From the IMG/VR virus record IMGVR_UViG_3300022939_000007, positions 35,764 to 99,763 of that record: 64,000 nt of DNA; one strand, 5' to 3'. Below are positions 24,790 through 64,000 of the stretch, piece by piece. This DNA is from a virus. Below the pieces are notes generated by a model, which was given only the letters and a program-made list of their open reading frames with translations, ran no database searches and was not told the DNA's origin. A program made the translations under genes and the position numbers. Position 1 is the stretch's first letter. Each line of letters begins with the position of its first letter.

Positions 24790-25374
24790 ATGATTGCTAA
24801 AAAAGAAAAAACAATACTAGTAGACTGCGATGGCGTTCTCCTTGATTGGGAGTACGCCTTTGATTGTTGGATGACTCGGCATGGATATGAAGTTGTCCAA
24901 GAAGGCGAATACAAAATGGATTTGAAATATGGACTTGCACGGGCCGAAGCAAAACGGCTGGTACGAATGTTCAATGAATCTGCTTGGATTCGGAAATTGC
25001 CTCCTTTACGGGATGCGATCAAATATGTGAAAAAACTTCATGAAGAACATGGTTATATTTTCCACGCAATTACTAGTTTGAGTAACGATCAATATAGTCA
25101 ACATCTTCGGACTAAAAACCTTCGGGAGTTGTTTGGAGATAGTGTCTTTGAACGGTATGTCTATCTTGACACTGGTGCTGACAAAGACGAAGCTCTTTTG
25201 GAATACTCTGGTTGTGGATGTTTTTGGGTTGAAGATAAACCTGAGAACGCAGACCTTGGTTTGCGGATGGGTTTAGAAAGTCTTTTGGTTGCTCATGAAC
25301 ATAACTCTGGATACACTGGTAGTGCTCTTCGGGTTCAAAACTGGAAAGAAATCTATGGATTGATTACCGATTAA
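24790..25374 (+). CDS. HAD-family 5'(3')-deoxyribonucleotidase-like phosphatase
   Basis: A 194-residue HAD hydrolase. Motif I is VDCDGVLLDWEY (nucleophile D12, acid D14), followed by a small helical cap. Motif II lies at HAITSLSND, and the motif III/IV region includes DKDEALLEYSG and FWVEDKPENADLG. The DGVLxDW signature is shared with 5'(3')-deoxyribonucleotidases. It probably dephosphorylates nucleoside monophosphates and so shifts the dNTP pool, along with the class II RNR and ThyX. Its stop overlaps the convergent fibre gene's stop (shared TTAA). Confidence 0.82.
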   Translation: MIAKKEKTILVDCDGVLLDWEYAFDCWMTRHGYEVVQEGEYKMDLKYGLARAEAKRLVRMFNESAWIRKLPPLRDAIKYVKKLHEEHGYIFHAITSLSNDQYSQHLRTKNLRELFGDSVFERYVYLDTGADKDEALLEYSGCGCFWVEDKPENADLGLRMGLESLLVAHEHNSGYTGSALRVQNWKEIYGLITD

Positions 25375-27527
25375 CTCATTTCATATAACCAAATTTTTCC
25401 AACCCCTGTTACAATAAATCTTGTTGTTCCAGGCAGTACGTGAATACCTGTGGCGAGATATCCAATGCCGGTATTTGTTATTGAAGATATTACCGAATCC
25501 CACGTATTGTTTGAATAATTATAATTCCTAAGATTAATACTATCGTGGTCGGTATAAAGAAGTGTCAATTTTTGGTTTGTACTATCGTGAGAAATACAGG
25601 TAGCTGTAGTACATTCAAGAAGTCCTGTGTCTACTAACCCACTATCTCCTGAGTTCGCACTAAATCCTGCTGATTTCGACCCACCATAAGTAGCAGCATC
25701 AATGTTTGCTGACATATCTCTATAAAAAAGTTTATATTTTTCTGATGTTGCACTACCCGAATCCACTTCATTTGTAGTTACTATAAATGAATGAGGCCAT
25801 TGGGAGTGTACTGATCTTGATAAATCCCAAGAATTCGCAAAATCCTGACTAGTTCCACTTACTGTATTGAATTCACTCGTATAGGCGAAGTGTTGGTCTA
25901 TTAAATTTCTGTCTAGAGAATTGAAAGTATCAGTCGAAGATTGTTGATCATAATTGTCTACAACCCAGTGGCCAGTTCCGGCTGAAATATCCCAATCAAA
26001 AACTTCAATTTTGTGTCCTCTATATGTACCAGCGCTATGATGTTGATAAAATGACAGATAGTATGAACGTAATATATCACTTCCGCCAACACTGAGTTGA
26101 TGTTGTGCTAATAATTGTCCACGTTTAGTGCTATGTGTTGGATGAGTATTATGATTTCTATCCCCAGAAGGCAAATTCGGTTGTTGTTTTGGGTGGTTAC
26201 TTGATACAAACTTAAAATAAGTATCTGAAGTCACAGCCGATGTGTAGTACGTAGCATCATTGATGTATGATTCATTAAATTTTTTCATATAAAATTCTGT
26301 CGGCTGACCGCCACTATTGTAAGAGGTTCCTGGCACAACATTTAGATTGGACGAACGGGTTCCTGACTGATCTTTACCAACAAGTCCAATAACGTATTGA
26401 GAAGTATCCGGCGCCCCCATATATCTTGTAGTACCTTGGTCGGGTGACGCAAGTGAACCATATGCAGTTGCGTGTGATTTATGACCTAAAGTTTCTGTAC
26501 CACTCACCCAAATTATATGTTGGGGTGTACTATCGGGTGAAAACGAGGATCCGCTGTCTCCTATCATCATTGCATGATAGCCATATGGTTTAGTACCACC
26601 ACTATCTGTGACTTTACCTATACCTATTGTGCCATGTGTGTTAATTGACCAACCACCAGAGGCAGTTGGTGTATAATTACTGTTAGTTGGAGCTTCTGTG
26701 ATTTGTGCAGCCCCCGTTACTGCCCCCCAATCAACCGTTGGATAGAATATTGAAGGTTCGCCTGCGCTTCTATTTGAGTAACCACTAGTAATTACACGAG
26801 CTCTTGCTTCCTCTATTCTAGTAGGATATGCCAACAATCCAGAAGTTCTCATTCCACCACCACTATTAGTATATTCGTTGGTGACTTGAGAGGTTCCTTT
26901 TACGGCAACTAGAGAAAGAGATGAAACTGACTGTAATAAATCATAACTGGATTGTCCATATGAAGTGAATTCTAAACTCGCAAATGCAAGCGAGAAGTTT
27001 GCAGTTTTATTTACTGTATTGACACCTTCTGTCGCAGAAAATGTTAAATCGAAAGTACCTTCGTCCGCTGGGTCATTTGTGCCTGGAGTAACTGTGAATT
27101 GATTTGTATTTGCACCAGTTCCTTGTTGAACTGTCGCAGTAGTACCAAGAGAACCAGATGTGACTGCATAACTCCAAGTTAAAGGTATTCCTTCTGGGTC
27201 TGAAGAAACGGCAGTAACAACTGTAGGTGTTCCATCTACAGCAAGATCGTATGTTGCATCCACTCCAGTAATAGCTGTGGGACTTTCATTTACTAATGCA
27301 ACACTATACCAACCATTTCCATCATGGATATAAAAATGTCGTGTACTAGATACAAATGCCATGTCGCCAGTTGTATTTCCAGTTGAAGGCAAATTACTTA
27401 TCGTTGCATAAACAGTTACGCCTCCGCCACCAATTTCACTAGTGGTGCCAGAAGAATCAATCTGGGTGTCCAGTGAACCACCTTCGGACATCAATTGTGA
27501 TAATTTTCTTGCTCTAGATGCAGGCAT
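25371..27527 (-). CDS. tail-fibre/adhesin-like protein with Ig-like domain
   Basis: A 718-residue protein, the last gene of the minus-strand array. It lacks the MAINFPNSP head. It starts MPASRARKLSQLMSEGG, then a fibre linker (DMAFVSSTRHFYIHDGNGWY, residues about 52-72), a cadherin/Ig-like domain (about 78-185: SPTAITGVDATYDLAVDGTP...SDPEGIPLTWSY), and a long Ser/Thr/Gly-rich C-terminus of unknown fold with short repeated HxTHSTKRG-type stretches. The start overlaps the upstream thermonuclease stop (TAATG). It is a likely receptor-binding or decorating fibre; the receptor is unknown. Confidence 0.8.
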   Translation of the reverse strand: MPASRARKLSQLMSEGGSLDTQIDSSGTTSEIGGGGVTVYATISNLPSTGNTTGDMAFVSSTRHFYIHDGNGWYSVALVNESPTAITGVDATYDLAVDGTPTVVTAVSSDPEGIPLTWSYAVTSGSLGTTATVQQGTGANTNQFTVTPGTNDPADEGTFDLTFSATEGVNTVNKTANFSLAFASLEFTSYGQSSYDLLQSVSSLSLVAVKGTSQVTNEYTNSGGGMRTSGLLAYPTRIEEARARVITSGYSNRSAGEPSIFYPTVDWGAVTGAAQITEAPTNSNYTPTASGGWSINTHGTIGIGKVTDSGGTKPYGYHAMMIGDSGSSFSPDSTPQHIIWVSGTETLGHKSHATAYGSLASPDQGTTRYMGAPDTSQYVIGLVGKDQSGTRSSNLNVVPGTSYNSGGQPTEFYMKKFNESYINDATYYTSAVTSDTYFKFVSSNHPKQQPNLPSGDRNHNTHPTHSTKRGQLLAQHQLSVGGSDILRSYYLSFYQHHSAGTYRGHKIEVFDWDISAGTGHWVVDNYDQQSSTDTFNSLDRNLIDQHFAYTSEFNTVSGTSQDFANSWDLSRSVHSQWPHSFIVTTNEVDSGSATSEKYKLFYRDMSANIDAATYGGSKSAGFSANSGDSGLVDTGLLECTTATCISHDSTNQKLTLLYTDHDSINLRNYNYSNNTWDSVISSITNTGIGYLATGIHVLPGTTRFIVTGVGKIWLYEMS

Positions 27528-27967
27528 TAGATAAGACCTTTTTCTTTTAGTTTCTCTCTATTTATGAGATGCAATTCTACTAATTCTTCTTTACTTTGGC
27601 CTTTATATGGGACAGCATGATGATTTTCTAACATTAGTGAAGTAATACTTCTTCGTGAAAAGTTATTTTTAGAGTCTTTGTATTCAATTTCAAAATCTCC
27701 AAGAATTCTTCCAAATTTTCCTGTCTTGTCTTTTTGTGTTTTGATAGTTTGAATGGAACCAATTGGAAGCAATTCTTTTAGATATTCTTTTGCGGCCAGT
27801 CCATAAACTTTTTCTTCTTCGTTTTTCGTTCTGGATTCTGGTGTATCAATACCCATAATACGCACTCTTTCTCTATGCATCCAAATTCCGAATCCTAAAT
27901 CAATGTCCACGTCTACTGTATCACCATCCACAATTCTTAAAATTTTACAATTATACTCATATGCCAT
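27527..27967 (-). CDS. thermonuclease (staphylococcal nuclease-like)
   Basis: A protein of 146 residues from the ATG at 27967 (MAYEYNCKI), which has AAAGGA about 10 nt before it; a longer in-frame start runs into the upstream gene. SNase core: RIVDGDTVDVDIDLGFG, then RVRIMGIDTPES (first catalytic Arg, then Glu region) and GKFGRILGDFEI (second catalytic Arg). No signal peptide is visible. It sits inside the fibre operon, with 4 nt to the upstream gene and a one-base overlap downstream. It hydrolyses DNA/RNA by family; whether it acts in the virion, on host DNA or in the cytoplasm is unknown. Confidence 0.9.
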   Translation of the reverse strand: MAYEYNCKILRIVDGDTVDVDIDLGFGIWMHRERVRIMGIDTPESRTKNEEEKVYGLAAKEYLKELLPIGSIQTIKTQKDKTGKFGRILGDFEIEYKDSKNNFSRRSITSLMLENHHAVPYKGQSKEELVELHLINREKLKEKGLI

Positions 27968-27971
27968 TATA

Positions 27972-30512
27972 TTATCCTTTAAACGGTGCTGTTGGTATGT
28001 TTGTAGTTTCATCTTCTGCACTGTATCTTGCATAATTACTTATTCTTAGATCTTGAACATAACCATGATAAGGCCAATTAATACCTGTAGCACTAGAGTA
28101 TTCACCTCCAATTATTATATGGTCTTTATCATAAGTAGTTGTTTTAGTACCAGATTGAGTGCTTCGTACACCATCAATCCAAGCTCTAAAAACATTACTA
28201 GAATCTCTACACACCGCTATATGATACCAAGTTCCTGTGCTCATAGCACCTGCTGCTCTAGAGAAGTTTATGTATCCACTATCATATATATCTACTCCAG
28301 TTCCGTTTGAATTAATTCTCATTTCAAGTTGATAATTTTCTAAACACCAAACATATCCAGAATTGAACGTACTTGTATTAACCCAGCATTCTATTGTCAA
28401 TTCGCCTGGAAGATAAATTTGGCTGTAGTGTCTTATATGATTAGGATTTGAGCCGGGGAAATACATTGATTTTGTATTAGCAAACTTAGCTTCAGCTGAT
28501 GAACCTGTTGCAGTGCCAAAAACTTTCATATTGCCTGTTTGAGCTTTATCTATAACAGATGCGTCTGTGCCTTTAACATGTAATACAGAATTTGTAGTGC
28601 TCTGTGGTGCTGTAGGTACAGTAATAGTAGAAGCTGTAGCATCAAACTGACTCGTGCCGACCTCATACTTAAAATCTGCAATAGTTCCCATTGCTGAATT
28701 CATTGCGGTGCCTGTTGATTCTCCAGCATAACCTACATAAAAATTAGCTAAACCAGACGCTGATATATTAATATTAGAAGTTGTTGTATTACATCTTTTT
28801 CCGTTTAAATAGTAAGATAAAGAGCCTCCGCTTCTACAGAACGCAATGTGATTCCAAGCATTAACCTGAACAGTGCTGTTTGTTTTTCCAGAAGCCATAT
28901 CTGCATAATTTGGATATCCCCATCTTACATCTAATTGACTACCACTTTGATATAATATGTCCCAGCCAGGACAGTTTGTCGGATATGAAACATAATTAGC
29001 ATCTCCGACAAGTTGTCTAGTAGTGCCTGGAGATGTTGTTGGATAATACCAAAATGAAACACAGAATGGATCTGTGCCTGATGGTTTTAGTGTGCTGGAA
29101 TGTGGAACAGAAAGATAATCATTGTCATTGGGCATGGAGACAGACCCACCGTGATCGCTTGCTGAGTATTCTAAGTTGTCGTAAGGGCCGAATGGTTTTG
29201 TTGAAGTATTGCCGTTTACTGTGATTGAGAGAGCGCTAGAAGAACCATCTGCTATATATGGAAGGTGGCAAGCAAGAAGTTGTGTATTTGTAATTGCAGT
29301 TAAGTGTGCGGTTGGTGGAGTGAACGCAGCAGAATATACAGCGGCACCTTTAACAAATCTAAAATCAGCAATATAACCAGTGAAATGTCTATTTACGGTA
29401 GTATTTGAAGAAGCCCCAATACGGATATTACTACCTCCTGTGGTAGATGCAGTTATTGAGGATGTGTAATTCTGAACACCATCAACATAAGCTGTAACTG
29501 TTGTTCCACTGTTCGTAATTACCCAAGCAAGATGATGCCAATTACCATCATTTATTGTACTAACTCCTGTATTGGGTGGATTATTAATCCAACCGGCTGA
29601 GTTTGAATAAAAAACTTGATAGCCGTTGTATAATCCAACTTCCATTCCGTTGTAGGGAGAAGATGGATCAAAATTACTAAATATTGCAACGTGTCCAGTT
29701 ACTGTCGTATTTACCCACGCTTCGATTGTTGTGTTTGATGTTTCGGGGAGAAGGTTAGTTGCTGTGGCAGATAGCTGTAAATAATCTGATCCATCGAAGT
29801 AAGTGCTATATCCACCATGCCGATATGGACTAAACGTACCTGCATGAGCATCGCCGTTTGCTGTGATTGTATGGTTGTTAACTGAACTATCGGTTATATT
29901 GTTGTTGTCTGATGTATCTACTGCTGTTGCTAAAAGAGTTGTATAATTACTGTTTGCAATAAAAAATTCCAGAGTGATTGATGTATTTGCATTCACTGCT
30001 CCACTAACACCATCAGTTGCATTAATTGTAAGAGTAAATGTTCCGAAATTAGCTTCATCGGTGCTAGGTGTAATAGTAAATACATTATCCGTTTGACTTA
30101 TCGTAGCAATACTACCAAGTCCAGATGTTGAATAACTCCATGTCAAAGGGAATCCTTCAGGGTCTGTAGAAACCCCTGTGATTACAGTAGGTGTTCCATC
30201 TATAGCAAGCGAATAAGTTCCATCTACTCCAGTGATTGCACTTGGAGAATCGTTTTGAACAGTTGCCACTTTATACCAACCAGTACCAGAATAGATATAA
30301 AGATTATTGTTTGCTTGAACGAATACTTGGTCACCATCAGTCATTCCAGTTTTTGCAATCAGTGCAGCCATATCTGCAACAGTCGAAACTGATGAACTGC
30401 CAGCCGCCGCGGCCCTCCATACTGTTTTTGTTGCATTGTATGTATATGTAACACCATTCGCTACATGCGTATCACCGTCTACTGGACTATTTGGAAAATT
30501 TACTGCTGCCAT
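27972..30512 (-). CDS. tail-fibre/adhesin protein with three LamG-like lectin domains
   Basis: A protein of 846 residues from the ATG at 30512 (MAAVNFPNSP), preceded by GGGAG. Modules: N-terminal head (1-35), linker with VFVQANNNLYIYSGTGWYKV (about 65-90), Ig-like domain (about 93-185), then three concanavalin/LamG-type domains. Each carries a TIEAWVN- or SFWYYP-type strand and an (H)HLAWV/HIAFCR/HIAVCR strand followed by a YxDG or YLNG turn, near 225-400, 435-620 and 650-840. LamG folds bind glycans, so this is a probable carbohydrate-binding fibre. Two nucleotides separate it from the upstream fibre gene. Confidence 0.82.
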   Translation of the reverse strand: MAAVNFPNSPVDGDTHVANGVTYTYNATKTVWRAAAAGSSSVSTVADMAALIAKTGMTDGDQVFVQANNNLYIYSGTGWYKVATVQNDSPSAITGVDGTYSLAIDGTPTVITGVSTDPEGFPLTWSYSTSGLGSIATISQTDNVFTITPSTDEANFGTFTLTINATDGVSGAVNANTSITLEFFIANSNYTTLLATAVDTSDNNNITDSSVNNHTITANGDAHAGTFSPYRHGGYSTYFDGSDYLQLSATATNLLPETSNTTIEAWVNTTVTGHVAIFSNFDPSSPYNGMEVGLYNGYQVFYSNSAGWINNPPNTGVSTINDGNWHHLAWVITNSGTTVTAYVDGVQNYTSSITASTTGGSNIRIGASSNTTVNRHFTGYIADFRFVKGAAVYSAAFTPPTAHLTAITNTQLLACHLPYIADGSSSALSITVNGNTSTKPFGPYDNLEYSASDHGGSVSMPNDNDYLSVPHSSTLKPSGTDPFCVSFWYYPTTSPGTTRQLVGDANYVSYPTNCPGWDILYQSGSQLDVRWGYPNYADMASGKTNSTVQVNAWNHIAFCRSGGSLSYYLNGKRCNTTTSNINISASGLANFYVGYAGESTGTAMNSAMGTIADFKYEVGTSQFDATASTITVPTAPQSTTNSVLHVKGTDASVIDKAQTGNMKVFGTATGSSAEAKFANTKSMYFPGSNPNHIRHYSQIYLPGELTIECWVNTSTFNSGYVWCLENYQLEMRINSNGTGVDIYDSGYINFSRAAGAMSTGTWYHIAVCRDSSNVFRAWIDGVRSTQSGTKTTTYDKDHIIIGGEYSSATGINWPYHGYVQDLRISNYARYSAEDETTNIPTAPFKG

Positions 30513-30513
30513 G

Positions 30514-31299
30514 TTACGCTCCCAATTCCAATGCAATAATTGTACTGATATATCTTCCACCAGTAGCATTATCCTGATCGTTGTTTGATCTATTAAGATG
30601 AAATGCGAAATTATTATCGTTATTTACATATAATTGATATATAACCTCAGATGTAGTTGCTGGTTCATCGATAAACTGTAAAATAAATGAATTTGCTTGA
30701 TTTGCATCAGAAGCAAGAGCTAAAGGAATAGATGTCCTTTGCCGAGACCCTGCCGCATCACCTATGAATATATCTTGATATGCGCCACCATCAATACTTC
30801 TTTTAAACCACGCTTTATATGTTGTTCCTTGTGTTCCATATGAGATTTGTGCAGTGAGATAAATTTTATTTGATGCAGAACTTGGTGTTATTGTAACAGA
30901 CATACCAGTTACTGCCATTTCTGTTCCGTTTGCAGTTCCAACAAATGTATCAGTTTTTGATGTAAATTGAGACTGTATGATACCGCTTGCCCCATCTGCT
31001 CCATCCGCGCCTGCTGTTCCATCTGCTCCATCTGTTCCCGCTGGACCTGCTGGGCCCTGTGAATTATTTGAGATTACCCATTGAGAACTTGTTCCATCAT
31101 TATAATATACATATGTTTCCAGAACACTTGGATCAAACCACATATCACCTTCTTTTGGATTTGTCGGCGCAGTTTCAGATACGGTATATAGAGAACCACT
31201 AGCATCCCACGCTCCAGATGTAGAGTCGAATGTGTAGGTTGTGTTTCCTACTAGTATAGTGTCTCCGTTATTTGGATTGCTTGGAAAATTGATTGCCAT
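30514..31299 (-). CDS. short fibre protein with collagen-like stretch
   Basis: A 261-residue protein. Modules: MAINFPSNPNNGDT head (1-35), a DTAP-type linker (VSETAPTNPKEGDMWF, about 40-75), then a collagen-like Gly-X-Y run of about 8 triplets starting GPAGPAGTDGADG (about 83-107), and a C-terminal beta-rich domain (about 115-261) like a trimeric knob. Prolines occur only in the X position of the triplets. Collagen-like rods are common in phage fibres and form trimers. Confidence 0.82.
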   Translation of the reverse strand: MAINFPSNPNNGDTILVGNTTYTFDSTSGAWDASGSLYTVSETAPTNPKEGDMWFDPSVLETYVYYNDGTSSQWVISNNSQGPAGPAGTDGADGTAGADGADGASGIIQSQFTSKTDTFVGTANGTEMAVTGMSVTITPSSASNKIYLTAQISYGTQGTTYKAWFKRSIDGGAYQDIFIGDAAGSRQRTSIPLALASDANQANSFILQFIDEPATTSEVIYQLYVNNDNNFAFHLNRSNNDQDNATGGRYISTIIALELGA

Positions 31300-31312
31300 T
31301 TACTTTAGTTCC

Positions 31313-33064: not shown

Positions 33065-33091
33065 GACTTACCTTTTATAATGCATTCGTTC

Positions 33092-33105
33092 TATTTATAT
33101 AAATA
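33092..33105. promoter_or_regulatory. palindromic, divergent pair of T4-type late promoters
   Basis: TATTTATATAAATA is a perfect 14-bp palindrome carrying TATAAATA on both strands: minus at 33092-33099 toward the fibre gene starting at 33064, plus at 33098-33105 toward the gene starting at 33137. Distances to the two start codons are 27 and 31 nt. The two boxes overlap by 2 bp, so simultaneous use of both would conflict. Confidence 0.75.
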
Positions 33106-33136
33106 AAACATACTATAATTTTTAGTGGAGAACTAA

Positions 33137-34408: not shown

Positions 34409-34417
34409 GAGATTGAC

Positions 34418-35125: not shown

Positions 35126-35206
35126 AAAGCGATTGATATCGAGGTGAATATTTTTCTCATGTTTTAATATAATTTTTTATTATAAAAAAATAATTAGGAG
35201 AAAAAT

Positions 35207-35689
35207 ATGATTGACCCGATTACAGCAATTGGGGCAGCAACGGCTGCGTTCAATGGAGTTAAAAAGTTAGTCCATGCCGGAAGAGAGATAGAAGATGTTG
35301 TCGGTCAATTGGGCAAATGGTATGGGGCTGCAGCAGATTTAGGGCGTGCTGAAACGCAAAGAAAAAATCCACCAATATTTACTAAGCTTTTTAGTAGCGG
35401 TTCTGTTGAACAGGAAGCTTTAGAGATTCTTGTTCATAAGAAAAAATTACAAGAACAAGAGAAACAACTAGAAGAGATGTTAAATATTCGGTTTGGTTTT
35501 GGAACTTGGCGCGAAATGATTGAACTTCGTAGAAAAATTCGCAAAGAAAGAGAAGAAACAGTTTATAGGCAACAAGAAAGACGCAGAGCATTTTTAGAAG
35601 GAATTGCTGTTATTTTTCTTACAGTATTTCTATTTGGACTTATTGTGTTTATTATTTGGTTTCTTGGCACAGGAGCCAACTGGTGGTAA
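35207..35689 (+). CDS. conserved marine T4-like protein with C-terminal membrane anchor
   Basis: A 160-residue protein. The N-terminus MIDPITAIGAATAAFNGVKKL and the middle HKKKLQEQEKQLEEMLNIRF are a pattern that I recognise from marine T4-like phages. One membrane segment lies at about 131-153 (AVIFLTVFLFGLIVFIIWF), after a basic coiled coil rich in Arg. Its function is unknown. It is followed directly, without spacing, by the next ATG (TAA-ATG). Confidence 0.8.
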   Translation: MIDPITAIGAATAAFNGVKKLVHAGREIEDVVGQLGKWYGAAADLGRAETQRKNPPIFTKLFSSGSVEQEALEILVHKKKLQEQEKQLEEMLNIRFGFGTWREMIELRRKIRKEREETVYRQQERRRAFLEGIAVIFLTVFLFGLIVFIIWFLGTGANWW

Positions 35690-55000: not shown

Positions 55001-58000
55001 GTATTTGTTGATGTATATTCTACAACACTAGGATTTGGTACATCAGATGCCGTAATATAACCAGCACCGTTAGTCAATTGATTGTTGTTTGTTGGAATTG
55101 TTGGTGTATTGGTTAAGTCATTATATGAACCAGATGTTGCAACTGTTGCAAGAGATGGTGTATTAGATAAGTCATTATAGTTACCAGATGTTGCTACTGC
55201 TGCAAAATCACTTACTGGTATGTCATATTGAAAAATTCTCCCCCCATAGGAGCCCTTATCAGACATAATGTATAGTTTTGTACCGTCTGGTTTGAAGAAT
55301 ATATCTGCTGGGCCATTACCACCATGAATAGATGCGGGCCATTGACTCCAAGAACTGGCTGTTGTTAAATCAAACGCTGTTGAGAAAGTTGTGTAGTAAA
55401 CAATATCGACACCATTTTTTATAAATGCGCCGGTTTTACCATCAGGGCTAATTGCAAATCTTGCCCCCGAATGTCCTGTGGTTGGAGTTGCTAGAGTTTG
55501 TACTGCACTCGCTGATGCTGTTGATAAATCCCAAGCAGTTGTTAAATCAAATCTTTGAATTTCATTTGGATCTGAGTTTCCAGTATTACTTTGAAATGTA
55601 AGATAGATTTTAGTTCCATCTTGCGAGAACCTAAAATCCCACAGAGGAAATTCGTTTGTGGTGTATGTATTAAATGGTTGATACCAAGCGTTGCCGGAAA
55701 CACCATCGTTGGGAGGCCTGATGATATTATTGAAGCCGGAACTTGAATATGTGTAAATTGCGCCGCTACTATTGTTTTGTGTATCTTGTCTATCAAGAAC
55801 AAACGCTTTGATTCCATCGTATGAAATTCTATATGTTGTGGGTTTGGCATCTGTACTTGCACTGCCATAATAATTACCACTTGTTGATGGTCTAATGTAC
55901 GAACTACCAACATGCGTCCATGTACTGCTCGTATCCCATGGCGTTGCTAATGTGTAATATATACCAGAACCAAACATTTCTGCTTGAAAACGTATTGCAG
56001 TACCAGCCGCATACATTAGATTTCCATTGATATCAAATGTATCTGTTTCGTTGATATGTAAACTTCCCTCGGACGATAGTAAATTAATATTCTGCGATTG
56101 CCCTTGGTCATTTGTTGCGTCCATATCGGCAAAACCACCTTCGATATTGATTTTCTCAGCTGGAGTGCTCCAAGCATAATCAGAACCATCCCACACAAGC
56201 ATTTGATCGGTTGTCGCTGTACTTTGATTTAGATGTAAATCTACACTTGCATCGCTATAACTACCAGCGGCTGTGATTTGATTGTTAACATAAGTTTCGG
56301 TTGCATATCCATTCAAATCGGATGCTTCTAGTTTATTTGCCAGTGAGTTAGTAATCGTTGTGGAGAAATTAGCGTCATCTCCTAGTGCAGCAGCCAGTTC
56401 ATTGAGTGTATCAAGTGTTGCTGGGGCAGAATCTACTAGGTTTGCTACAGAAGTGTCTACATATGCTTTTGTTGCATAGGTAGCAAGACTTGCATCAGTT
56501 AATTCATCTAAAAGATCAACAGCAAGTGTTGTGCTTGACATAGCAAGTCCAACTTTAGCATTGTTTGTATCTGGAGTTGCCGAAAGACTACCATCTGATA
56601 ATACATAATATTTTGACCCAGCTGTCAAACCAGAAAGTCCAGTATGAATACCTCCCTCTACAGTGACATCAATTGTTGTACCAGCAGACGCAGCAATACC
56701 ATGAATTTTAGATGCATCTAGATTGGATTCTGTATATACACCTTGAGTTGGTTGGGCAAACAATTTAACAACCAAACTGGTTGCATTTGTGTTGCCTGGC
56801 GCCGATATTGATCCTTTAGCACTCCTGAAAGGATCCATTTGTATTTTGCCTGGATATCCAAATCCAGTGTTCTTTGCATAAGAGTTGTTGCCGTGCGTAA
56901 CTCTACTTGTACCAATAACTATATTTAAAGATGAATTTACTGAGAAATGGGTTATGAACGAACCATCCTTACTGTTACTAGTATTGTTTAGATAATAATA
57001 CCCTGCGTTAGTTAGTGCAAACATATTACTGTTCTTGTAGAATGCCATATTTCCAGAAAGATGGCCATAAGTTCCACCTTGATTATAGCCTAGTGAGTAT
57101 TCTGAGCCTTCCGCCACTGCTGAATTTCCTGTTGTCGAAAATGCTCTAAGTTTTAGACTGTTACTTCCTCCACCAACACTCCAAGCAACAACAAAATGTT
57201 CACTAGAATCTCTCCATGCCACATGCGCTGGTGCGTCAGTACCAAAATTTGTGTTGAACGAAGTCAATCCATATGCTGTTCCGACAGTAATATTTCCTGT
57301 ACCCCAATCTATATCACCAATTCTGAGATTTCCAGAGGCATCAACTCCTGCAAATCTACCCTCTGTGAGTTTTGAGAAGTCCAATGATCTACTATCGATA
57401 GGATGTGGTATAGCAAAATCATCGCTATATTGGATTGTAGCATTTCCATCCCACGTAACTCTAAATATTCTACAATTACTAGAATTGTCTCTGTATGCGC
57501 CGATGATTTTGTAAGAACCGGCAGTACTTCCGGCATGGTCATAGTACCAATTAATATGATCGAGTCGAGAATTATAGGTAGGTCCGCTGTTAGAACTATT
57601 AGTTCCTGTATCACTCCAAGTGATTCCAACGCCACCCATTGTGCCTACGGCATGAATAATTAAATCTGATGATCCTCCATTCTTCTTCGGCCCTAAAATT
57701 AAAAATTTATCTGGATTGTCTGGACTTCCAATCACATACGGATTATCTGATGTAGCAAGTCCCAATGAGTTCCCCAATGAGGCAAGATCTTGATATTCGG
57801 TTCCATAAGTCCAAGTCTCAGTTGAACTATTATATTCAGCAGAAACAATTTTCATTTCAAAAATACTGCCAGGCGCCTCATCAAAGGCTACAGAGATGTA
57901 CTTGTTATCAGTTTGTGTTGGAAATAACCAATATCCAACATGAGCTGCGACCAAACCATTAGTATTACTAATAGTGTAGCCTTCATTATTTGGAAGAAGT

Positions 58001-61000
58001 TGTTGATATGACCCATTATAACCTTGATTTGTAAGTTGCTCTGGAGAAGTTGCAACTTCAACTGGAGTCACAGTTCCATCAGTATTTAACATTACAACAT
58101 CATTTACAGATGCAGAAGATGTAGATGTATATTCTACGATATTGGTGTTTGGAATATCGGCAGCGGTGATATATCCGGCACCATTAGCCAACTGATTATT
58201 ATCTGTTGGTTGTGCTACCCATTCATAATCTGTACCATTCCAGCTTAAAACTTCATTTGATGTCGCTGTACTTTGGTTTAGATGTAAATCTACACTTGCA
58301 TCGCTATAACTACCTGCCGCCGTGATTTGTTGACCGACATATGATTTTGTCGCATATGTACCTAAATCTGCACTTGTAAGTTCGTCAGTAAAATCTAATG
58401 CAAGAGATGTTGCATTGATAGCAACACCAAGTTTGGCATTTTTAGAGTCTGGTGCCGTCGCCAAAGTTCCATTGTCTATTACATAATATGTTGACCCAGT
58501 AGTAAGTCCAGAAAGTCCTGTATGAATTCCAAACTCCAAAGTTACATCAATAGTTGTTCCGGCAGTTGCTGCAATACCATGAACTTTAGATGCATCTAGG
58601 TTGGACTCTCCATAAGGAAACTGAAGATGTTTTACTCTATATTCATGTCTATAGTTTCCACTATCATATCTCCTATTTTTCCAAGAAATTGAAAACTGTC
58701 CCGATTGATGTGGATTATCAAATTGTAACGGAACTGAAGAATGACTCCATCCACTTGTTTGAACGGCCCCGGCAGTGTTTGTAATACTTGTCCCATTCAC
58801 ATCCCATATTTCATAAAAAGACTCTAAGGTATAGTTGCTTTTGTCATCGTATGAAACCATGAATGTACTAGATTTTTTGGCAAATTTAAGGTCGTATGGA
58901 GTACCGTTATAGCTATTTGCGGTAGTGTCCCATGTAACTGTACTTCCCACAGAAGTGAGAGTGTGATTACTATCAATGGAGAATTGTCGTAGATATGAGT
59001 TAGAATTTGGATAAAACGAGAGATTGACTCGATATGCCGCAACAGCATTTCCACTGATTGGATCAATTCCTACTGCTGTAGCAATTGAATTTAGATTGAA
59101 ACTACCACCAAAAGTTGCGGTTTGAGTATCCCAGTCAACAATACCTGCGACGATCGATGTAGTTCCATCTTTTGCAATAAACTTACCTTCAGTATTGTGG
59201 TCAAAAGAAAATCCTGATTTTCCAGTAACATCAACGGGATCGCCATATGTTAGTGTGGTTCCGTCCCATTCGATTCTAACGAGTTTTTTGTTTCCGCTAG
59301 CATCACTATATTCCATGATAAATTTGTCTGTTGTGCCTGGAGTACTTCCAGCATAATCGTATTGGAATCTTTGAGAGCCAGAAGAATAACCTTCGGTGTT
59401 GTAATCTGGATGTGTAATGTAAGTTCCATCCCAAGTAACAGCAGTTCCACTAACTGTACCCTGCAATGACATAACTTGGTGTCCAGTTGCAGATGTGGAC
59501 TTGCCTATAACTAAAATTCTATCTGGATCGACAGAACTAAAAAGAATATATGGTTCTTCTCCTTGAGTGGTACTTAATCCTCTAGTACCGTTAGCTGCAT
59601 TATAATCGCTAAAGAGGTATTCAGTACCATACGAAAAGGTTCCACTGTTGTTTATTTGAATACAACCATTCCATCCATTACTTTCTACCCACATTGTGAA
59701 ATATTTGTCTGGTGTTGAAGAACCCCCAACAATTGCAGATTCTCCAGATGCATTATTTTCAGTGCCTGCCGAGGTAATGTAATTTTCACCCTTATTCGCT
59801 ATAAATGGATAATTTGTAGGTTCAACTACAGTCACAGTTCCATCAGTATTCAACATTACAACATCATTTACAGCAGCTGTATTTGTTGAAGTATATTCTA
59901 CAACATTTCCACCAGAGACATTGTTTGCAACATAGTTTTGTACATATGTTTCTGTTGCAAGACCTGTTAAGTCTGCGTTTGCAACGGTTTCAATCCATCC
60001 TGTAGTTTTATAGATATAGAGTTTTTGTGTATCTTCAACAAATGCAATGTCACCAACTGTGTTTCCGACGGCTGGAAGATACGTTGCATCACTATAGATG
60101 TTGACAGATGCAACCAAAGATGTTCCATCTGGTGCAATCAGAGTTGCAGTACCAGCAACTTCTTTAATCTTATTCTCAAAACTTGGAGTATTTTCTACAT
60201 ATGTTGCCAAGTCTTGTGGTACAAACTTGTTTGTCGATGAATCATACACTAGACACATTTGTGATGTAAGTGTTGGTAGAGGACGAAGTTCAATTGTCTG
60301 TACATGTCCTTCTTGGTTGTGCTGGCCATATATTAAATAGTTGCCATTCGCGTTTGTTTCAACTGCCAAATCCTTAACGCGAATAATACCACGCATATTT
60401 GAATGATTTCCACACTGATAGTATAGAATATCTGGTGCGTTTGACGGCACAACAAATGTGATTGTTCCAGTTTCATTTCTAGAACCAGTAACACCAGAAG
60501 TCCACTCACCAAAATATGTTCCTGCTGAAAAATTGGTGCCGTTGTCGGTTGTAAAGTAGAATGGATGGCCAGTTGCATTGATATTGACAGTATATGTACC
60601 ACCACGATAAAACGGCCCAATCTCTGGATTGTTTCCACTAGCAGTACCACTAAACACATAAGCTCCTGTGGTAGAAGTGACATCATAAGAAACAGACGGA
60701 GCAACGAGTGTAGGTAGTGTGATAGAAGAAGGAACACTCACAGCAAGTCTTTGAACATCTTGTGCAGTCCCGCCGTTGATGTCTGGGTGACTATCATTTA
60801 CAATTGATGTAGTTACCCAAGGAACAAGGTTATCATCTCCAGCGCCCTCAATCCATTTCAATTTGAAATCGTGCCTTTGCGTCATTGATCCATGAACAGT
60901 ATGTGCAAAGTTATTGATTTGATATGTTCCCTCCAAATAAAGTGGAACAACGGTTTGTGGTGAATTTGTAATTGCAAGTCTGGCAAAAGGCAAAGCGGAT

Positions 61001-61560
61001 TGTGTCCAAGTCCACTGCCATGCCGTTCCGTGGCCTGCTGTTGGATCATCTACTTGAATTTCGAGTGTTTCTGGTGTTACAGAAAGATCAAAGTTCAGAA
61101 TATCATCTGAACTAAATGTTGTTTCTCCAAGATACAATGTGTTTGAACTCAGATATAAATCTCTAAATTTGTTCGTTGCAGAACCCAAATCAAGAGTTTC
61201 GTTAGTTGCAGGGATGATTGCAGAACCCAATGATTGCAGATTTGCATCTGACATATATTTGTTGGAAATTCCTTCTAGGATATCATCAGAGGTTACGGAA
61301 GGTGAAAGAGCAGATTGAGAAGTATTTCTAACTTGTTTTAGGGCCTGTGACAGTTTAATGACTTCATCCGTAGTTGCACCAGAAGATAGAGTTTGTGCTC
61401 TCGAATCAATTGCAGCTTCAATGTCAGTATCTTCAGTCAAACCAACTGATTTTGCCGCCCTTGCAAGTGCCAAAAGTTCATCTACAGTTGCTGTAGGAAT
61501 ATCATTTAATAATCTTGTACGAATTCCACTAATCGATGTTGAAAGATTGGTATCTGCCAT
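52087..61560 (-). CDS. giant tail-fibre protein (3157 aa) with cupredoxin-like domains
   Basis: Head MADTNLSTSISGIRTRLLND with the ETLDLGSATNKFRDLYLSSNT segment, as in the 35924 and 38186 genes. Near residues 290-395 and 2795-2885 lie two cupredoxin-like domains: GHPFYFTT...YYQCGNHSNMRG and SHPLRFST...YYYCTNHSGMGAG, each offering His, Cys, His and Met as in type 1 copper sites. Between them are several large repeats with VVEYTSTNTAAVNDVVMLNT, SKVHGIAATAGTTIDVTLEFGIHTGL and SAPATLDTLNELAAALGDD (typical T4-like fibre shaft). Each is followed by a long SPDGxT-type propeller-like region. A DTAP linker and a small C-terminal domain end the protein. It could span the length of a long tail fibre. 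Confidence 0.85.
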   Translation of the reverse strand: MADTNLSTSISGIRTRLLNDIPTATVDELLALARAAKSVGLTEDTDIEAAIDSRAQTLSSGATTDEVIKLSQALKQVRNTSQSALSPSVTSDDILEGISNKYMSDANLQSLGSAIIPATNETLDLGSATNKFRDLYLSSNTLYLGETTFSSDDILNFDLSVTPETLEIQVDDPTAGHGTAWQWTWTQSALPFARLAITNSPQTVVPLYLEGTYQINNFAHTVHGSMTQRHDFKLKWIEGAGDDNLVPWVTTSIVNDSHPDINGGTAQDVQRLAVSVPSSITLPTLVAPSVSYDVTSTTGAYVFSGTASGNNPEIGPFYRGGTYTVNINATGHPFYFTTDNGTNFSAGTYFGEWTSGVTGSRNETGTITFVVPSNAPDILYYQCGNHSNMRGIIRVKDLAVETNANGNYLIYGQHNQEGHVQTIELRPLPTLTSQMCLVYDSSTNKFVPQDLATYVENTPSFENKIKEVAGTATLIAPDGTSLVASVNIYSDATYLPAVGNTVGDIAFVEDTQKLYIYKTTGWIETVANADLTGLATETYVQNYVANNVSGGNVVEYTSTNTAAVNDVVMLNTDGTVTVVEPTNYPFIANKGENYITSAGTENNASGESAIVGGSSTPDKYFTMWVESNGWNGCIQINNSGTFSYGTEYLFSDYNAANGTRGLSTTQGEEPYILFSSVDPDRILVIGKSTSATGHQVMSLQGTVSGTAVTWDGTYITHPDYNTEGYSSGSQRFQYDYAGSTPGTTDKFIMEYSDASGNKKLVRIEWDGTTLTYGDPVDVTGKSGFSFDHNTEGKFIAKDGTTSIVAGIVDWDTQTATFGGSFNLNSIATAVGIDPISGNAVAAYRVNLSFYPNSNSYLRQFSIDSNHTLTSVGSTVTWDTTANSYNGTPYDLKFAKKSSTFMVSYDDKSNYTLESFYEIWDVNGTSITNTAGAVQTSGWSHSSVPLQFDNPHQSGQFSISWKNRRYDSGNYRHEYRVKHLQFPYGESNLDASKVHGIAATAGTTIDVTLEFGIHTGLSGLTTGSTYYVIDNGTLATAPDSKNAKLGVAINATSLALDFTDELTSADLGTYATKSYVGQQITAAGSYSDASVDLHLNQSTATSNEVLSWNGTDYEWVAQPTDNNQLANGAGYITAADIPNTNIVEYTSTSSASVNDVVMLNTDGTVTPVEVATSPEQLTNQGYNGSYQQLLPNNEGYTISNTNGLVAAHVGYWLFPTQTDNKYISVAFDEAPGSIFEMKIVSAEYNSSTETWTYGTEYQDLASLGNSLGLATSDNPYVIGSPDNPDKFLILGPKKNGGSSDLIIHAVGTMGGVGITWSDTGTNSSNSGPTYNSRLDHINWYYDHAGSTAGSYKIIGAYRDNSSNCRIFRVTWDGNATIQYSDDFAIPHPIDSRSLDFSKLTEGRFAGVDASGNLRIGDIDWGTGNITVGTAYGLTSFNTNFGTDAPAHVAWRDSSEHFVVAWSVGGGSNSLKLRAFSTTGNSAVAEGSEYSLGYNQGGTYGHLSGNMAFYKNSNMFALTNAGYYYLNNTSNSKDGSFITHFSVNSSLNIVIGTSRVTHGNNSYAKNTGFGYPGKIQMDPFRSAKGSISAPGNTNATSLVVKLFAQPTQGVYTESNLDASKIHGIAASAGTTIDVTVEGGIHTGLSGLTAGSKYYVLSDGSLSATPDTNNAKVGLAMSSTTLAVDLLDELTDASLATYATKAYVDTSVANLVDSAPATLDTLNELAAALGDDANFSTTITNSLANKLEASDLNGYATETYVNNQITAAGSYSDASVDLHLNQSTATTDQMLVWDGSDYAWSTPAEKINIEGGFADMDATNDQGQSQNINLLSSEGSLHINETDTFDINGNLMYAAGTAIRFQAEMFGSGIYYTLATPWDTSSTWTHVGSSYIRPSTSGNYYGSASTDAKPTTYRISYDGIKAFVLDRQDTQNNSSGAIYTYSSSGFNNIIRPPNDGVSGNAWYQPFNTYTTNEFPLWDFRFSQDGTKIYLTFQSNTGNSDPNEIQRFDLTTAWDLSTASASAVQTLATPTTGHSGARFAISPDGKTGAFIKNGVDIVYYTTFSTAFDLTTASSWSQWPASIHGGNGPADIFFKPDGTKLYIMSDKGSYGGRIFQYDIPVSDFAAVATSGNYNDLSNTPSLATVATSGSYNDLTNTPTIPTNNNQLTNGAGYITASDVPNPSVVEYTSTNTAAVNDVVMLNTDGTVTVVEPTNYPFVRVSANNAQMTSGFGGASSYVGTIAHHSTREKAMLLFPGGTGHSDNNMLVPFIKSGSTISAGTAFASGNHLSIRDPHAFFGPAGTYEDTFIYLAASSNGNSILKVGTITGTTVNGLSNLSGGNGSVSIGHSGNRCLFYHGGFSGDVLTLYAKFPNSNNKAALRKFTYDFATETFDTSYPEIETSSSEVFEWEHTAVDPATPTRIAVYRQEGSGATRKGIIKFATVDWDIGTIVLGPQTDLFTRSGTHSVGASEIQNHQEFHPTNGLLATVTTTPADGGGDAPYRLKMALYSADANLNVTNVSGNITIQGGANVQVGKVRGNICWTKGSNTGSSPNAPTLIIPWWNTNDTYPVTRYYHFDNSGNLVSSNDSQINGPDDFPQNINKWIYSSPFNDGDTAAYTLASNYPEVVMTQGAYGESNFDATKLHGVAASAGTTIDVTLEYGIHTGLSGLTTGTKYFVTDGGGISTSGVAKLGTAINATSLALDFADELTSADLGTYATKAYVASQIPSLTGYATETYVDTSVANLVDSAPATLDTLNELAAALGDDPNFATTITNQIASKANAYSTVTVTASGGYFYIDGIQQATLSFEPGRTYRFDQSDASNGSHPLRFSTTSDGTHASGVEYTVGVTTNGTAGSAGAYTEIAITHATPDLYYYCTNHSGMGAGSVVGNFSGSYSDLTGTPTPYSDSMVDTHLNQSSASTGQVLSWNGSDYSWADVAGGATTSDTAPTSPSAGEFWFKSDSADLYLYYTDADSSQWIQVGGAAASTTTGSSSSSSTTPFTKFYLSASQPGSTVSSSSYLGQNVGTWYEATFANAANTAGLSPDSSDRDPTLTGITFSGDKFSGFVQNGTYEISVQPEVYERNSTAGQRYHGWEASTGAFSSAGWLSPGTGSFNINGVTVPDSIIVTFEDATPANNWIRYILESDQSGDYWIGQAILTIKKIG

Positions 61561-61590: not shown

Positions 61591-61598
61591 TATTTATT
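61591..61598 (-). promoter_or_regulatory. late promoter-like box (AATAAATA on minus strand)
   Basis: A one-base variant of TATAAATA, 30 nt upstream of the giant fibre ATG at 61560, overlapping the stop codon of the upstream gene. Confidence 0.58.
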
Positions 61599-62190
61599 AT
61601 TTGTGTGATTGGGGATTTATTAAAACCCTAACATAAGATTGATTTTTCAATACCTTTTTATAAACAATATAATCTATTCGATTATCATAACAAATTTTCA
61701 AAATTTCTTTCGGGCCCTTCCAATCAGAATCTTCCCCTAACAGTTCTGGTTCATCTGACGCAGCCTTTATATTTTTTGTACCCATTTGTTTCCATCGATC
61801 TATACTGATTCTATCTTCAATATTATTTTTGTATATCTTTGTTGTCCATATTCTGTCATTATTGTTTATATAATATCCTCTTCCAGTGATCGATTGATGT
61901 GAAACTCTATAAGCCTCTGAATCAACATCCTTCCACGTTGATTCAGTTGTATAAAATCTCTTCTTATTTGTGGATAAACTTTCCAGATCTACTCCATATT
62001 TTATTTCTTCATTTGGATTGTCTTTGAATATTCTTGGCACATTATCGATCCCAATTGCCTTTACAAGATTCTTATATCCTTTAACCATCAAACAAATTGA
62101 AAATTCTCCATTCCTATAAGAAAATATCAAGTCGGTGGCATCCGAATAGTCATATTCTGTTAAAAAAAATTTATTAAATAAATGTATCAT
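61597..62190 (-). CDS. unknown protein between fibre genes, 197 aa
   Basis: A 197-residue protein (MIHLFNKFFLTEYDYSDATD...) with a mixed charged composition unlike the Ser/Thr/Gly-rich fibres around it. WKDVDSEAYRVSHQSITGRG and RISIDRWKQMG are prominent stretches. There is no signal peptide, membrane segment or known motif. It overlaps the upstream adhesin gene by 4 nt, so it is expressed with it and could be a fibre assembly chaperone; this is inference. Confidence 0.68.
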   Translation of the reverse strand: MIHLFNKFFLTEYDYSDATDLIFSYRNGEFSICLMVKGYKNLVKAIGIDNVPRIFKDNPNEEIKYGVDLESLSTNKKRFYTTESTWKDVDSEAYRVSHQSITGRGYYINNNDRIWTTKIYKNNIEDRISIDRWKQMGTKNIKAASDEPELLGEDSDWKGPKEILKICYDNRIDYIVYKKVLKNQSYVRVLINPQSHK

Positions 62191-62996
62191 AATGTCACCG
62201 TATATTCCCCTTCGGCCGAGTATATATATTCGTTGCTGTTAATTGTAATTTTAACATATCCCCCAGCGCCATTTCCCCCATTTGTGCCACCGTCGACCCC
62301 ACCAAGGCCAGGAGCTCCAACTACTATTGTCATTATTGAACCGCTTGGAATTTCTATGGCATAATTTTCAGAACTCACTTCCCGAATAGCTGCATCGCCG
62401 CCCTCTCCTGCTGGGTCTCGATTGTATATTCCTCCGTATGAGTTCGTCTGGACGCGGCCGCCGCCTCCACCGCCCCCCGCGCCATAGCTTGTGCCCGGCG
62501 CACCGCCTCCATTGGACTTTAATCCTCCGCCAGCACCACCAGAGCCATAATAAGAGGCGTCACCAGTTCTGTCAGAAGATCCCCGATCAACCGAGCTCGC
62601 GATGCCTCCTTCGGCACCACTTGATGTTACTGATAAAATTGTAGTTACAACATCATTATCATCTGTATGTTCAATTACAATACTGCTATCGCCACCCGTT
62701 TCTCCGTCCGTAACGCCGACTGTAGTTTGGCCATTATTCATTCCTGATCCACCGCCTCCACCACCACCAATTAATTCATACTCAACTGGAATTGGAGATT
62801 CCGTTCCATAAAAATCATCAAAACTTATGGGATCTCCTTGGATTTCTGGGACCTCAGAATTCGCTGGCAAATCTTGAACATATCCAACTGTTCTATAATA
62901 ATCTTCGAATGAAACCCTCTGCCAAGTAGGTGAAGCTGAATTATGAACTAATTGGATATCTCGTATTGATATAGCTCCAGAAGATTGTATTGGCAT
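62187..62996 (-). CDS. glycine-rich adhesin (gp38-like composition)
   Basis: A 269-residue protein. The N-terminus (MPIQSSGAISIRDIQLVHNS) and ISFDDFYG are a module common at the start of marine phage tail proteins. From about residue 77 (YELIGGGGGGGSG) it is a glycine-rich domain with runs of 5-8 Gly separated by short variable loops, ending AGGYVKITIN near 250. This matches the layout of T4-like distal adhesins with polyglycine sandwiches, where the loops bind the receptor. Followed by a 4-nt overlap with an unknown gene that could encode its chaperone. Confidence 0.78.
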   Translation of the reverse strand: MPIQSSGAISIRDIQLVHNSASPTWQRVSFEDYYRTVGYVQDLPANSEVPEIQGDPISFDDFYGTESPIPVEYELIGGGGGGGSGMNNGQTTVGVTDGETGGDSSIVIEHTDDNDVVTTILSVTSSGAEGGIASSVDRGSSDRTGDASYYGSGGAGGGLKSNGGGAPGTSYGAGGGGGGGRVQTNSYGGIYNRDPAGEGGDAAIREVSSENYAIEIPSGSIMTIVVGAPGLGGVDGGTNGGNGAGGYVKITINSNEYIYSAEGEYTVTL

Positions 62997-63241
62997 TATG
63001 TCATATCCGAAAATGCAGTGAGATTGCCTCTGGTTTCAATATCACCAGTTGTTGATATTCTCATCATTAATGTGCCGTTATATGTAAATAGTAGTCTATT
63101 TGATGAGTCTTGTGAAACTGTCCAATTTTCCAATCCAAACTGATCTACAACCCATTTATCATCGGTTGCATTATATTCCCAAGTTTTGACACCAATTGTA
63201 TGTTTATCTCCATTAGAAGGATTTGTAGGAAACTCTGCCAT
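62996..63241 (-). CDS. short fibre-type protein, 81 aa
   Basis: An 81-residue protein: MAEFPTNPSNGDKHT is a shortened version of the MAINFPNSP head (ends KTWEYNATDDKWVVD), followed by a small beta domain (WTVSQDSSNRLLFTYNGTLMMRIS and DIETRGNLTAF), a pattern known at the C-terminus of marine phage fibre proteins. It looks like a complete mini-fibre rather than a decayed one. It overlaps the adhesin gene start by one base. A strong AAGGAGAAATA site precedes the ATG. Confidence 0.75.
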   Translation of the reverse strand: MAEFPTNPSNGDKHTIGVKTWEYNATDDKWVVDQFGLENWTVSQDSSNRLLFTYNGTLMMRISTTGDIETRGNLTAFSDMT

Positions 63242-63267
63242 TTATTTCTCCTTTTTCTATCTATCCT

Positions 63268-64000
63268 TTATGAATAATATATATTTGTGCTGTGGGTGGT
63301 GTTTTTATCACTACTTGTTGATTGTGCCTGAACTTGAATAGAAGTTACTGCACCAGAACCAACCCAAGCTGTGCCTGGCACCGTAACATTTCTACTATTG
63401 AGAAAATATGTTCCCGATCCAGTAGTGGCATCAATATAAATTAAATAATCAAAATCGATTACACTTCCATCGCCGTCGTTCTGCACTGATCCGGCCGCTC
63501 TTTGCGTGCCATTTACGAATAACCTTCCCTGACCTTGACTATTGTTTTGACTGCTTGTGCTTCCTTTTATTAGGATACCTTTAGTTCCAGATGGTATTGT
63601 TGCACTACTATTTGAGGTGCCATTATTACTACCTGTAGCACTTACGGTTTCGGTTGAACTCCACGCACCAAAGACAACGGAAGAAGAAGTGTCAATAAAA
63701 CTAAATGTTCCGCTTCCATCAGTTGATAAAACTTGACCATTAGTTCCATCTGTGATGCCTAAATCTGTAAGAGAAGTAGCAGTGTCAATAAAACTAAATG
63801 TTCCGCTTCCATCAGTTGATAAAACTTGACCATTAGTTCCATCTGTGATGCCTAAATCTGTAAGAGAAGTAGCAGTGTCAATAAAACTAAATGTTCCGCT
63901 TCCATCAGTTGATAAAACTTGACCATTAGTTCCATCTGTGATGCCTAAATCTGTAAGAGAAGTAGCAGTGTCAATAAAACTAAATGTTCCGCTTCCATCA
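63268..64000 (-). CDS. tail-fibre protein, C-terminal part (5' end outside window)
   Basis: The frame is open from the stop at 63268 to the window's right edge (about 244 codons). The upstream part is a 31-residue repeat, TDLGITDGTNGQVLSTDG plus SGTFSFIDTATSL. This is followed by SSSVVFGAWSSTETVSA, a GTKGILIKGSTSS...RLFVNGTQRAAG segment and a C-terminal VQAQSTSSDKNTTH region. DGTNGQVLSTDG-type repeats are well known in shafts of T4-like marine phage fibres. A GTG at 63486 could be mistaken for a start, but the coding sequence clearly continues upstream. Confidence 0.82.
   Translation of the reverse strand, partial: DGSGTFSFIDTATSLTDLGITDGTNGQVLSTDGSGTFSFIDTATSLTDLGITDGTNGQVLSTDGSGTFSFIDTATSLTDLGITDGTNGQVLSTDGSGTFSFIDTSSSVVFGAWSSTETVSATGSNNGTSNSSATIPSGTKGILIKGSTSSQNNSQGQGRLFVNGTQRAAGSVQNDGDGSVIDFDYLIYIDATTGSGTYFLNSRNVTVPGTAWVGSGAVTSIQVQAQSTSSDKNTTHSTNIYYS
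63691..64000 (-). repeat. perfect 93-bp tandem repeat in fibre gene (at least 3.3 copies)
   Basis: The 93-bp unit starting gtcaataaaactaaatgttc begins at 63691, 63784, 63877 and 63970; the last copy is cut by the window end. All complete copies are identical base for base, and the unit keeps the reading frame (31 residues). Perfect identity implies recent amplification or continuing copy-number change. Confidence 0.95.

Follow-up and report, generated by a model that had tools for sequence, protein, structure and literature searches.

Fibre tips as probable replaceable cassettes in a multi-gene adhesin array of an uncultured T4-type phage

Phage host recognition determines which cells can be killed, and the locus described here raises the question of how one phage comes to carry a whole row of fibre genes in which shared stems bear different tips. 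The window, as we call the stretch of 64,000 nucleotides under analysis (positions 35,764 to 99,763 of IMG/VR virus record IMGVR_UViG_3300022939_000007), forms the terminal 64 kb of a 99,763-bp record from an uncultured T4-type phage, and a 203,815-bp record (G001) represents the same phage. The array in the window is a row of about 16 fibre or adhesin genes, named here by their first coordinate (Table 1). We consider it likely that the tips of these proteins are replaceable cassettes, which are exchanged by recombination and shown in parallel late in infection.

The proteins of the array are built from common parts. A first-pass annotation of the sequence had proposed that nine of them share a MAINFPNSP-type head (head A) and three a MADSNLSTS head (head B), and that linkers and an immunoglobulin (Ig)-like domain are reused in at least eight. 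Translation, all-against-all BLASTP and profile tests bear this out. With full profiles, head A is confined to the nine named frames, head B to three (35924, 38186 and 52087) and the Ig-like domain to eight (25371, 27972, 31313, 35924, 38186, 40148, 41675 and 47018), and linkers are also common to several array proteins by BLASTP and profiles. Because full profiles find by construction the sequences they were built from, we used leave-one-out scoring (Z=1000) for the heads, Ig and linker 2. This gave E 1e-22 to 5e-10 for head A, with 62996 the weakest, 6e-28 or better for head B and 7e-19 or better for Ig, compared to a best match of E 0.5 to 3.4 in a control of 248 frames shuffled once each. 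The other module profiles also derive from window sequences, namely LamG from 27972, FG-GAP from 35924, Gly-rich from 31313, 38186 and 62187, and propeller from 48821, 43149, 52087 and 41675.

To compare one position across related phages, we used the gene at 24790-25374, which converges on the first fibre slot, as an anchor, and this allowed a survey of slot 1 in 80 of 345 loci. The slot is occupied in 22 loci by a minus-strand open reading frame (ORF) beside the anchor, which we took as a fibre and in which a linker or Ig was detected in 15 cases. Three loci are empty, with the nuclease gene next and the anchor and flanks intact; seven have a short minus-strand ORF alone, and 48 have no ORF there or end earlier. 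The occupied slots hold seven C-terminal types in complete genes plus two further end types in cut genes. The window and locus L208 illustrate the pattern. They share 99.4% DNA identity across 10.4 kb as far as the fibre stop codon, their tips (~1630 bp in the window and ~830 bp in L208) have no mutual match (blastn, E 1e-8), and identity resumes at codon 175 in both, directly past the last Ig strand. This second match stops at window 27996, 24 nt within the 3' end of gene 27972, and since L208 continues for 560 bases past that point, this neighbouring gene probably has a different tip as well.

For a pairwise comparison we set the window beside 13 of the 80 loci, having dropped near-duplicates and those whose slot was not resolved. 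These 14 sequences yielded 91 pairs, with flank pieces ranging from ~600 bp to 10.6 kb. Nineteen pairs are at least 95% identical in the flank piece reaching the stop codon, and these comprise 4 with the same tip, 12 with different tips and 3 that set an occupied slot against an empty one. The reciprocal case is seen in L218 and L223, which have the same tip within continuous 95.1% identity but different linker and Ig. Between L211 and L218, the linker and Ig are 94.5% identical and the flanks 80.7%, which indicates transfer of the module itself.

Other slots break in the same kinds of places. Among L056, L060 and L061, flanks are 93-99% identical in DNA while the fibre tips do not match; homology stops at the fibre stop codons and resumes at the Ig end (amino acid ~329), at the linker/Ig border (~182), at the linker start (~142) or near amino acid 19. 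The C-terminus of 35924 is likewise replaced in relatives beyond amino acids ~329-335. A tip cassette is thus bordered by the stop codon on one side and by the Ig end, the first ~19-33 codons or a linker border on the other, where a visible break marks the end of similarity and the crossover itself may lie elsewhere. Slots are gained or lost, stems and tips are exchanged reciprocally, and breaks coincide with module borders and stop codons. These near-identical relatives support C-terminal exchange at module borders, as the first-pass annotation had suggested from the genes of the window.

Cassettes also recur outside their own slot. A mosaic gene in record G004 combines the N-terminal module of 31313, a linker and Ig nearest to those of 41675 (70%) and three LamG domains ~43% identical to those of 27972. 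It adjoins the same plus-strand gene that in the window is followed by 31313, 30514 and 27972, and its opposite flank is unlike the window's. A LamG fibre (L061:7113-9929 and L002:2-940) also stands ahead of the terminase-leading block, namely in G004, in L068/L069 and where the window's own record begins; in G004 its other neighbour is the homologue of 33137, so fibre loci may have been rearranged with one another. We considered whether G004 owes its different gene order to an inversion of the stretch between two LamG genes, but its LamG tip is 41% identical to one candidate and 43% to the other, which does not discriminate.

The same behaviour is found in a second clade of four records with median backbone identities of 87-98% (L015 was compared by one protein only). 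Here we grouped tips and N-termini by single linkage at 60% identity and 60% coverage and counted positions from the gene with N-terminal type N2. The same tip types lie at different positions and on different N-terminal types: N2 itself carries C2 in G005 and G007, but in G006 this tip is found on N0, four genes further along; C1 belongs in G005 to the N3 gene two positions along, and in G006 and L015 to N0; and C6 comes after the N2 gene in G005 and before it in G007. As a pattern, then, tip cassettes are exchanged between related phages within a slot and recur across slots and N-terminal types.

Stems and tips can also be compared in bulk. We cut 180 complete Ig-bearing fibres at the Ig end and 539 non-fibre control ORFs mid-way; the resulting pairs are non-independent, and exact duplicate proteins alone were removed. 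The N-terminal parts are at least 70% identical in 274 pairs of fibres, of which 27 have a C-terminal part about as conserved (within 15 points) or more so, whereas the halves of non-fibre ORFs from the same loci stay similar in 485 of 493. In the reverse direction, tips are at least 70% identical in 39 pairs, and in 13 of these the stems lie more than 15 points lower; one such pair is L065 and L068 (tips 99% and stems 73% identical in protein). Such reverse pairs go beyond what fast tip evolution alone would give.

Could the tips instead have diverged in place? On this account, paralogues expanded by duplication and their tips drifted until homology faded, with no exchange. Duplication is indeed seen, as 40148 and 41675 are 78% identical in DNA over 625 bp of their N-terminal halves, and LamG tips keep their fold at 33-40% identity in many pairs with stems above 85%. 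Divergence is less easily reconciled with tips that lack any DNA match beside the nearly identical flanks of the window and L208, or with one tip type on different N-terminal types and positions, and it is already weakened by the reciprocal cases, in which the stem is replaced under tips 95% identical in DNA (L218, L223) or 99% identical in protein (L065, L068). We therefore regard it as unlikely. It is less probable still that an assembler joined tips of different phages through the repeated modules. Five slot-1 types each occur in 3-4 IMG/VR records (some cut, some copies of one phage), the breaks fall on stop codons and module borders, and the empty slot has intact flanks in three records, although the conserved stems are possible misjoin sites, the window's record ends in a tandem repeat within a fibre gene, and both it and G001 begin within a LamG gene.

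The first-pass annotation had also allowed for alternative fibres and a switchable host range. Programmed variation within the phage, whether by invertible fibre genes, a shufflon or a diversity-generating retroelement, would provide this, and the repeated modules could act as its recombination sites. However, reverse transcriptase RVT_1 (PF00078), resolvase PF00239 and phage integrase PF00589 each match in none of eight records, some of them fragments and one of them the 203.8-kb record. In addition, the fibre genes of the window all share one strand. The phage is also represented by four other records, whose identity is 99.94-100% across the stretches compared, 28189-50093 and 16671-30375 (data that include the L121/L206 comparison). 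With no reverse transcriptase, resolvase or integrase family in the eight records and no change of the array in the stretches compared, a programmed switch is very improbable, and the idea of alternative fibres is not supported.

Expression signals bear on whether the exchanged tips would be shown together. The phage encodes a late sigma factor (phrog_234, 1.2e-63). The 8-base T4-type late promoter motif TATAAATA is enriched in the capsid-gene stretch L002 (7 seen compared to 1.99 expected, a count reached by 2 of 200 shuffles), and the 7-base ATAAATA occurs no more than 60 nt ahead of 5 of 17 array starts (background 0.0097 per 60-mer, P 5e-7, uncorrected) and of 5 of 14 core genes too. Scans for sigma-70 promoters and terminators in 25000-44900 gave chance levels. 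Every gap between successive minus-strand genes is below 60 bp, bar the one holding plus-strand genes. Late-promoter-like motifs and close spacing favour joint late expression, which is thus suggested for the array genes, and both are compatible with the proposal of the annotation that the fibres occupy parallel attachment sites on the virion.

Several observations weigh against cassette exchange with parallel late display. Many of the LamG tips scored as differing retain 33-40% identity, so that rapid divergence, and not exchange, may account for part of the effect. Slot-1 types L222 and L226 each occur in one of the 80 loci (the L222 type is also in L065, which is cut ahead of the anchor gene), and 7 of the 22 occupied slots have no detected linker or Ig module. 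The slot-1 pairs are non-independent, some flank pieces are merely ~600 bp long, and the compared records are metagenome assemblies. On the side of expression, the 8-base motif is unenriched across the window (6 seen, 7.15 expected), and the 7-base upstream test was picked after viewing the sequences.

Cassette exchange with parallel display nevertheless remains the reading we favour, and a route for it can be proposed. The conserved head would be the virion-binding end of each protein, and the tip, judging from its fold types, would contact the host surface. New tips would probably arrive by ordinary homologous recombination, which would take place during co-infection within the conserved stems and neighbouring genes and be driven by recombination genes that the phage itself encodes: a UvsX-like recombinase (phrog_97, 2.8e-85), an SbcC-like subunit and DNA helicase phrog_16, which we take to be UvsW-like. 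The tips would probably be made together late and displayed in parallel instead of being switched. Taken together, near-identical relatives with different tips on shared stems suggest that these viruses trade host-recognising parts. A bolder version, which we put forward only tentatively, is that the array is a standing deck of adhesins with many tips at once on each virion, whose tip pool crosses slots, heads and related phages by way of the Ig stem, so that host recognition would be inherited by tip cassette, rather than by fibre gene or by phage. Near-identical phages with different slot tips and mapped breaks are natural matched pairs, which let one ask what ligands the tips bind, how fast tips move and whether one virus has multiple receptor specificities. 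Host prediction from backbone similarity may fail in such groups.

Swapping of fibre tips is already known, and its multi-gene, cross-slot form here is a variant of it. The comparisons that follow apply to the cited sections of each source. T4-type phages show C-terminal shuffling of the long tail fibre gp37 and adhesin gp38 (as cited in PMC3797505), and in the T4 superfamily these host-specificity tips are reassorted as modules against a core genome whose divergence is vertical (PMC3797505). As in T4-type long tail fibres, close relatives here have a variable tip on a conserved stem with conserved flanks. However, gp37/gp38 form one long-tail-fibre locus with its adhesin, compared to a row of ~16 genes here, and those sections (PMC3797505) contain neither an Ig module shared by paralogues nor cross-slot movement, both of which are present in our case. 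The array also resembles the host recognition cluster (HRC) of pelagimyophages and cyanomyophages. That cluster is a large, hypervariable part of marine T4-like genomes which holds several tail fibres, and the structural genes of these phages carry lectin and collagen domains (PMC7029224). The HRC sits between VrlC and gp14 (PMC7029224); the present array lies beside DNA-metabolism genes, adjoining the phrog_420 gene and ThyX. HRC variation is described at the level of genes (PMC7029224), while what varies in this array is the tip that each gene encodes.

Likewise, near-identical genomes differ in host-recognition genes within metaviromic islands, and C-terminal fibre parts are more variable than N-terminal ones, but the cited account concerns pelagiphage fibres with a T7-like N-terminus, studied by read recruitment, and describes no array of reused modules (PMC3909814). 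A survey of domain shuffling in receptor-binding proteins found recent domain mosaicism in tail fibres across phages (PMC10684548); it is general, whereas ours is a single array with mapped break points and slots. The hyperbranched system of Klebsiella phage phiKp24, with fourteen putative fibres, also unites many receptor-binding proteins and attachment modules in one myovirus, but has depolymerase tips and T4 gp10-like docking domains (PMC9700779). General Pfam/PHROG scans of the array proteins, with no dedicated search, returned no depolymerase or gp10-like docking family. Among the matches listed from the open-licence literature, no paper describes a multi-gene array whose members share an Ig stem and whose tips recur across slots.

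Table 1. Genes of the array and its neighbours, in window coordinates.
Coordinates	Strand	Gene product	Composition and remarks
24790-25374	+	flanking gene, phrog_420, no assigned function	converges on slot 1; anchor of slot comparison
25371-27527	-	slot-1 fibre	linker + Ig-like, amino acids 34-173; family-less C-terminal part, amino acids ~175-718, replaced in relatives
27527-28033	-	SNase nuclease-like, non-fibre	between fibre slots; kept in relatives
27972-30512	-	fibre	head A + linker + Ig + three LamG (Pfam)
30514-31299	-	fibre	head A + linker 2 + collagen-like stretch + knob resembling phrog_6942 tail fibre
31313-33064	-	fibre	head A + second N-terminal module + linkers + Ig + Gly-rich C-terminus (Gly_rich_2)
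33137-35689	+	three non-fibre genes (33137, 34418, 35207)	split the array
35924-38176	-	fibre	head B + linker + Ig + FG-GAP-like C-terminus
38186-40093	-	fibre	head B + linker + Ig + Gly-rich C-terminus (Gly_rich_2)
40148-41644	-	fibre	head A + linker + Ig + C-terminus with weak propeller-like match
41675-43147	-	fibre	head A + linker + Ig + predicted propeller-like C-terminal half
43149-47006	-	fibre	head A + long repeats related to 48821 (BLASTP E 4e-33); no Ig
47018-48790	-	fibre	head A + three linker-2 repeats + linker + Ig (Pfam Big_9) + unclassified C-terminus
48821-51400	-	propeller protein	Pfam Lactonase; no head or Ig
51397-51753	-	small family-less protein	within array (Pfam/PHROG scan)
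51766-52029	-	head A + short tail alone	87 amino acids (profile test)
52087-61560	-	fibre, 3157 amino acids	head B, internal repeats, propeller-related stretch, tail-fibre PHROG modules; no Ig
61597-62190	-	small family-less protein	within array (Pfam/PHROG scan)
62187-62996	-	Gly-rich protein	within array; no Pfam/PHROG family; weak BLASTP to Gly-rich part of 31313, E 3e-9
62996-63241	-	short head A protein	81 amino acids (profile test)
63268-64000	-	3' part of further fibre gene	cut at record end; complete in G001, 866 amino acids

The annotation had described about 36 kb of mosaic adhesin genes. The mosaic modules stand, but the array is discontinuous, broken by the nuclease gene and by the three plus-strand genes, and its 15 fibre-like genes as far as 63241 total 33.4 kb. 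Among the plus-strand genes, 34418 encodes thymidylate synthase ThyX, 33137 looks membrane-protein-like by eye and 35207 is without assigned function. The true start of the nuclease gene is probably nearer 27967, as relatives match from residue 23 on; for 27972, the listed ORF extends to 30569 and the head starts near 30512. PHROGs annotated as tail fibre are matched by 30514, 47018 and 52087, and by none of 25371, 35924, 40148, 41675, 43149 and others.

The claim that the C-termini differ in kind holds for the three LamG domains and the Gly-rich, FG-GAP and propeller tips, with FG-GAP_2 in 35924 barely exceeding the Pfam cut-off. The collagen match in 30514 falls below its cut-off (19.8 compared to 27.2 bits), with Gly-X-X repeats visible, and a beta-helix in 47018 could not be confirmed. 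No Pfam or PHROG family matched 25371, and its predicted structure is poor (predicted local distance difference test, pLDDT, 39.7). The model of 41675 is better (pLDDT 73, predicted template-modelling score, pTM, 0.63), and most titles among the 50 structure matches listed of 1776 are those of WD40, YncE or other propeller proteins, although template-modelling scores by query length are low, 0.20-0.36.

The array includes two head-only mini-proteins, at 51766-52029 and 62996-63241. The first is followed by one small gene and then by the headless propeller 48821, an arrangement that may represent a split fibre. The last fibre gene contains a 93-bp tandem repeat at 63680-64000 (3.5 copies, 99% matches), seemingly with a lower copy number in G001.

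Core genes place the phage among the T4-superfamily myoviruses. PHROG matches include terminase (3e-64), sheath (5e-111), portal (1e-196), scaffold (2e-69), major head (5e-148) and baseplate wedge (3e-163). The major head protein is ~56% identical to those of the nearest isolates, which are Methylophilales phage Melnitz, Pelagibacter phage HTVC008M and cyanophages. Megablast of window 30000-50000 against 50,697 phage records gave no match, and protein 40148 had none in a search for close isolates; matches of 47018, 27972 and 38186 are mainly to cyanophages, through linker, LamG or head parts. The phage with the best LamG match, DSL-LC04, has a 61.5-kb circular genome in which a single large lectin-like gene, and no comparable array, is present.

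A host search in cellular genomes returned two matches (L285 and L286), both to one contig in two unrelated metagenome-assembled genomes. The contig, MHASMcontig_807657 (55,371 bp), carries the Ig module and is binned under the same name in both Neomarinimicrobiota and Flavobacteriales, and the IMG/VR record of L148 (2785511447_000001) is also 55,371 bp long. It is likely phage contamination.

Pelagimyophages are reported to have CsgF and CsgG, with CsgA and CsgB reported missing in the cited section (PMC7029224). In L007:6647-12415, a curli-type operon lies between ThyX and a head-B fibre, a place where the window has none; by DNA identity it is also in L056 and L060. Its Pfam matches, from L007 only, are CsgG (2.6e-49), CsgF (3e-14), two proteins bearing curlin repeats, another with a FecR domain and one that combines CHASE2 with a class III nucleotide cyclase. 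Finally, G001:142341-203815 (L047-L050) holds ~60 kb of plus-strand genes for many very large proteins, up to 2321 amino acids. They include baseplate-type and further fibre-like proteins, and four match tail-sheath phrog_12249, which makes this region a second large investment in tail structures.

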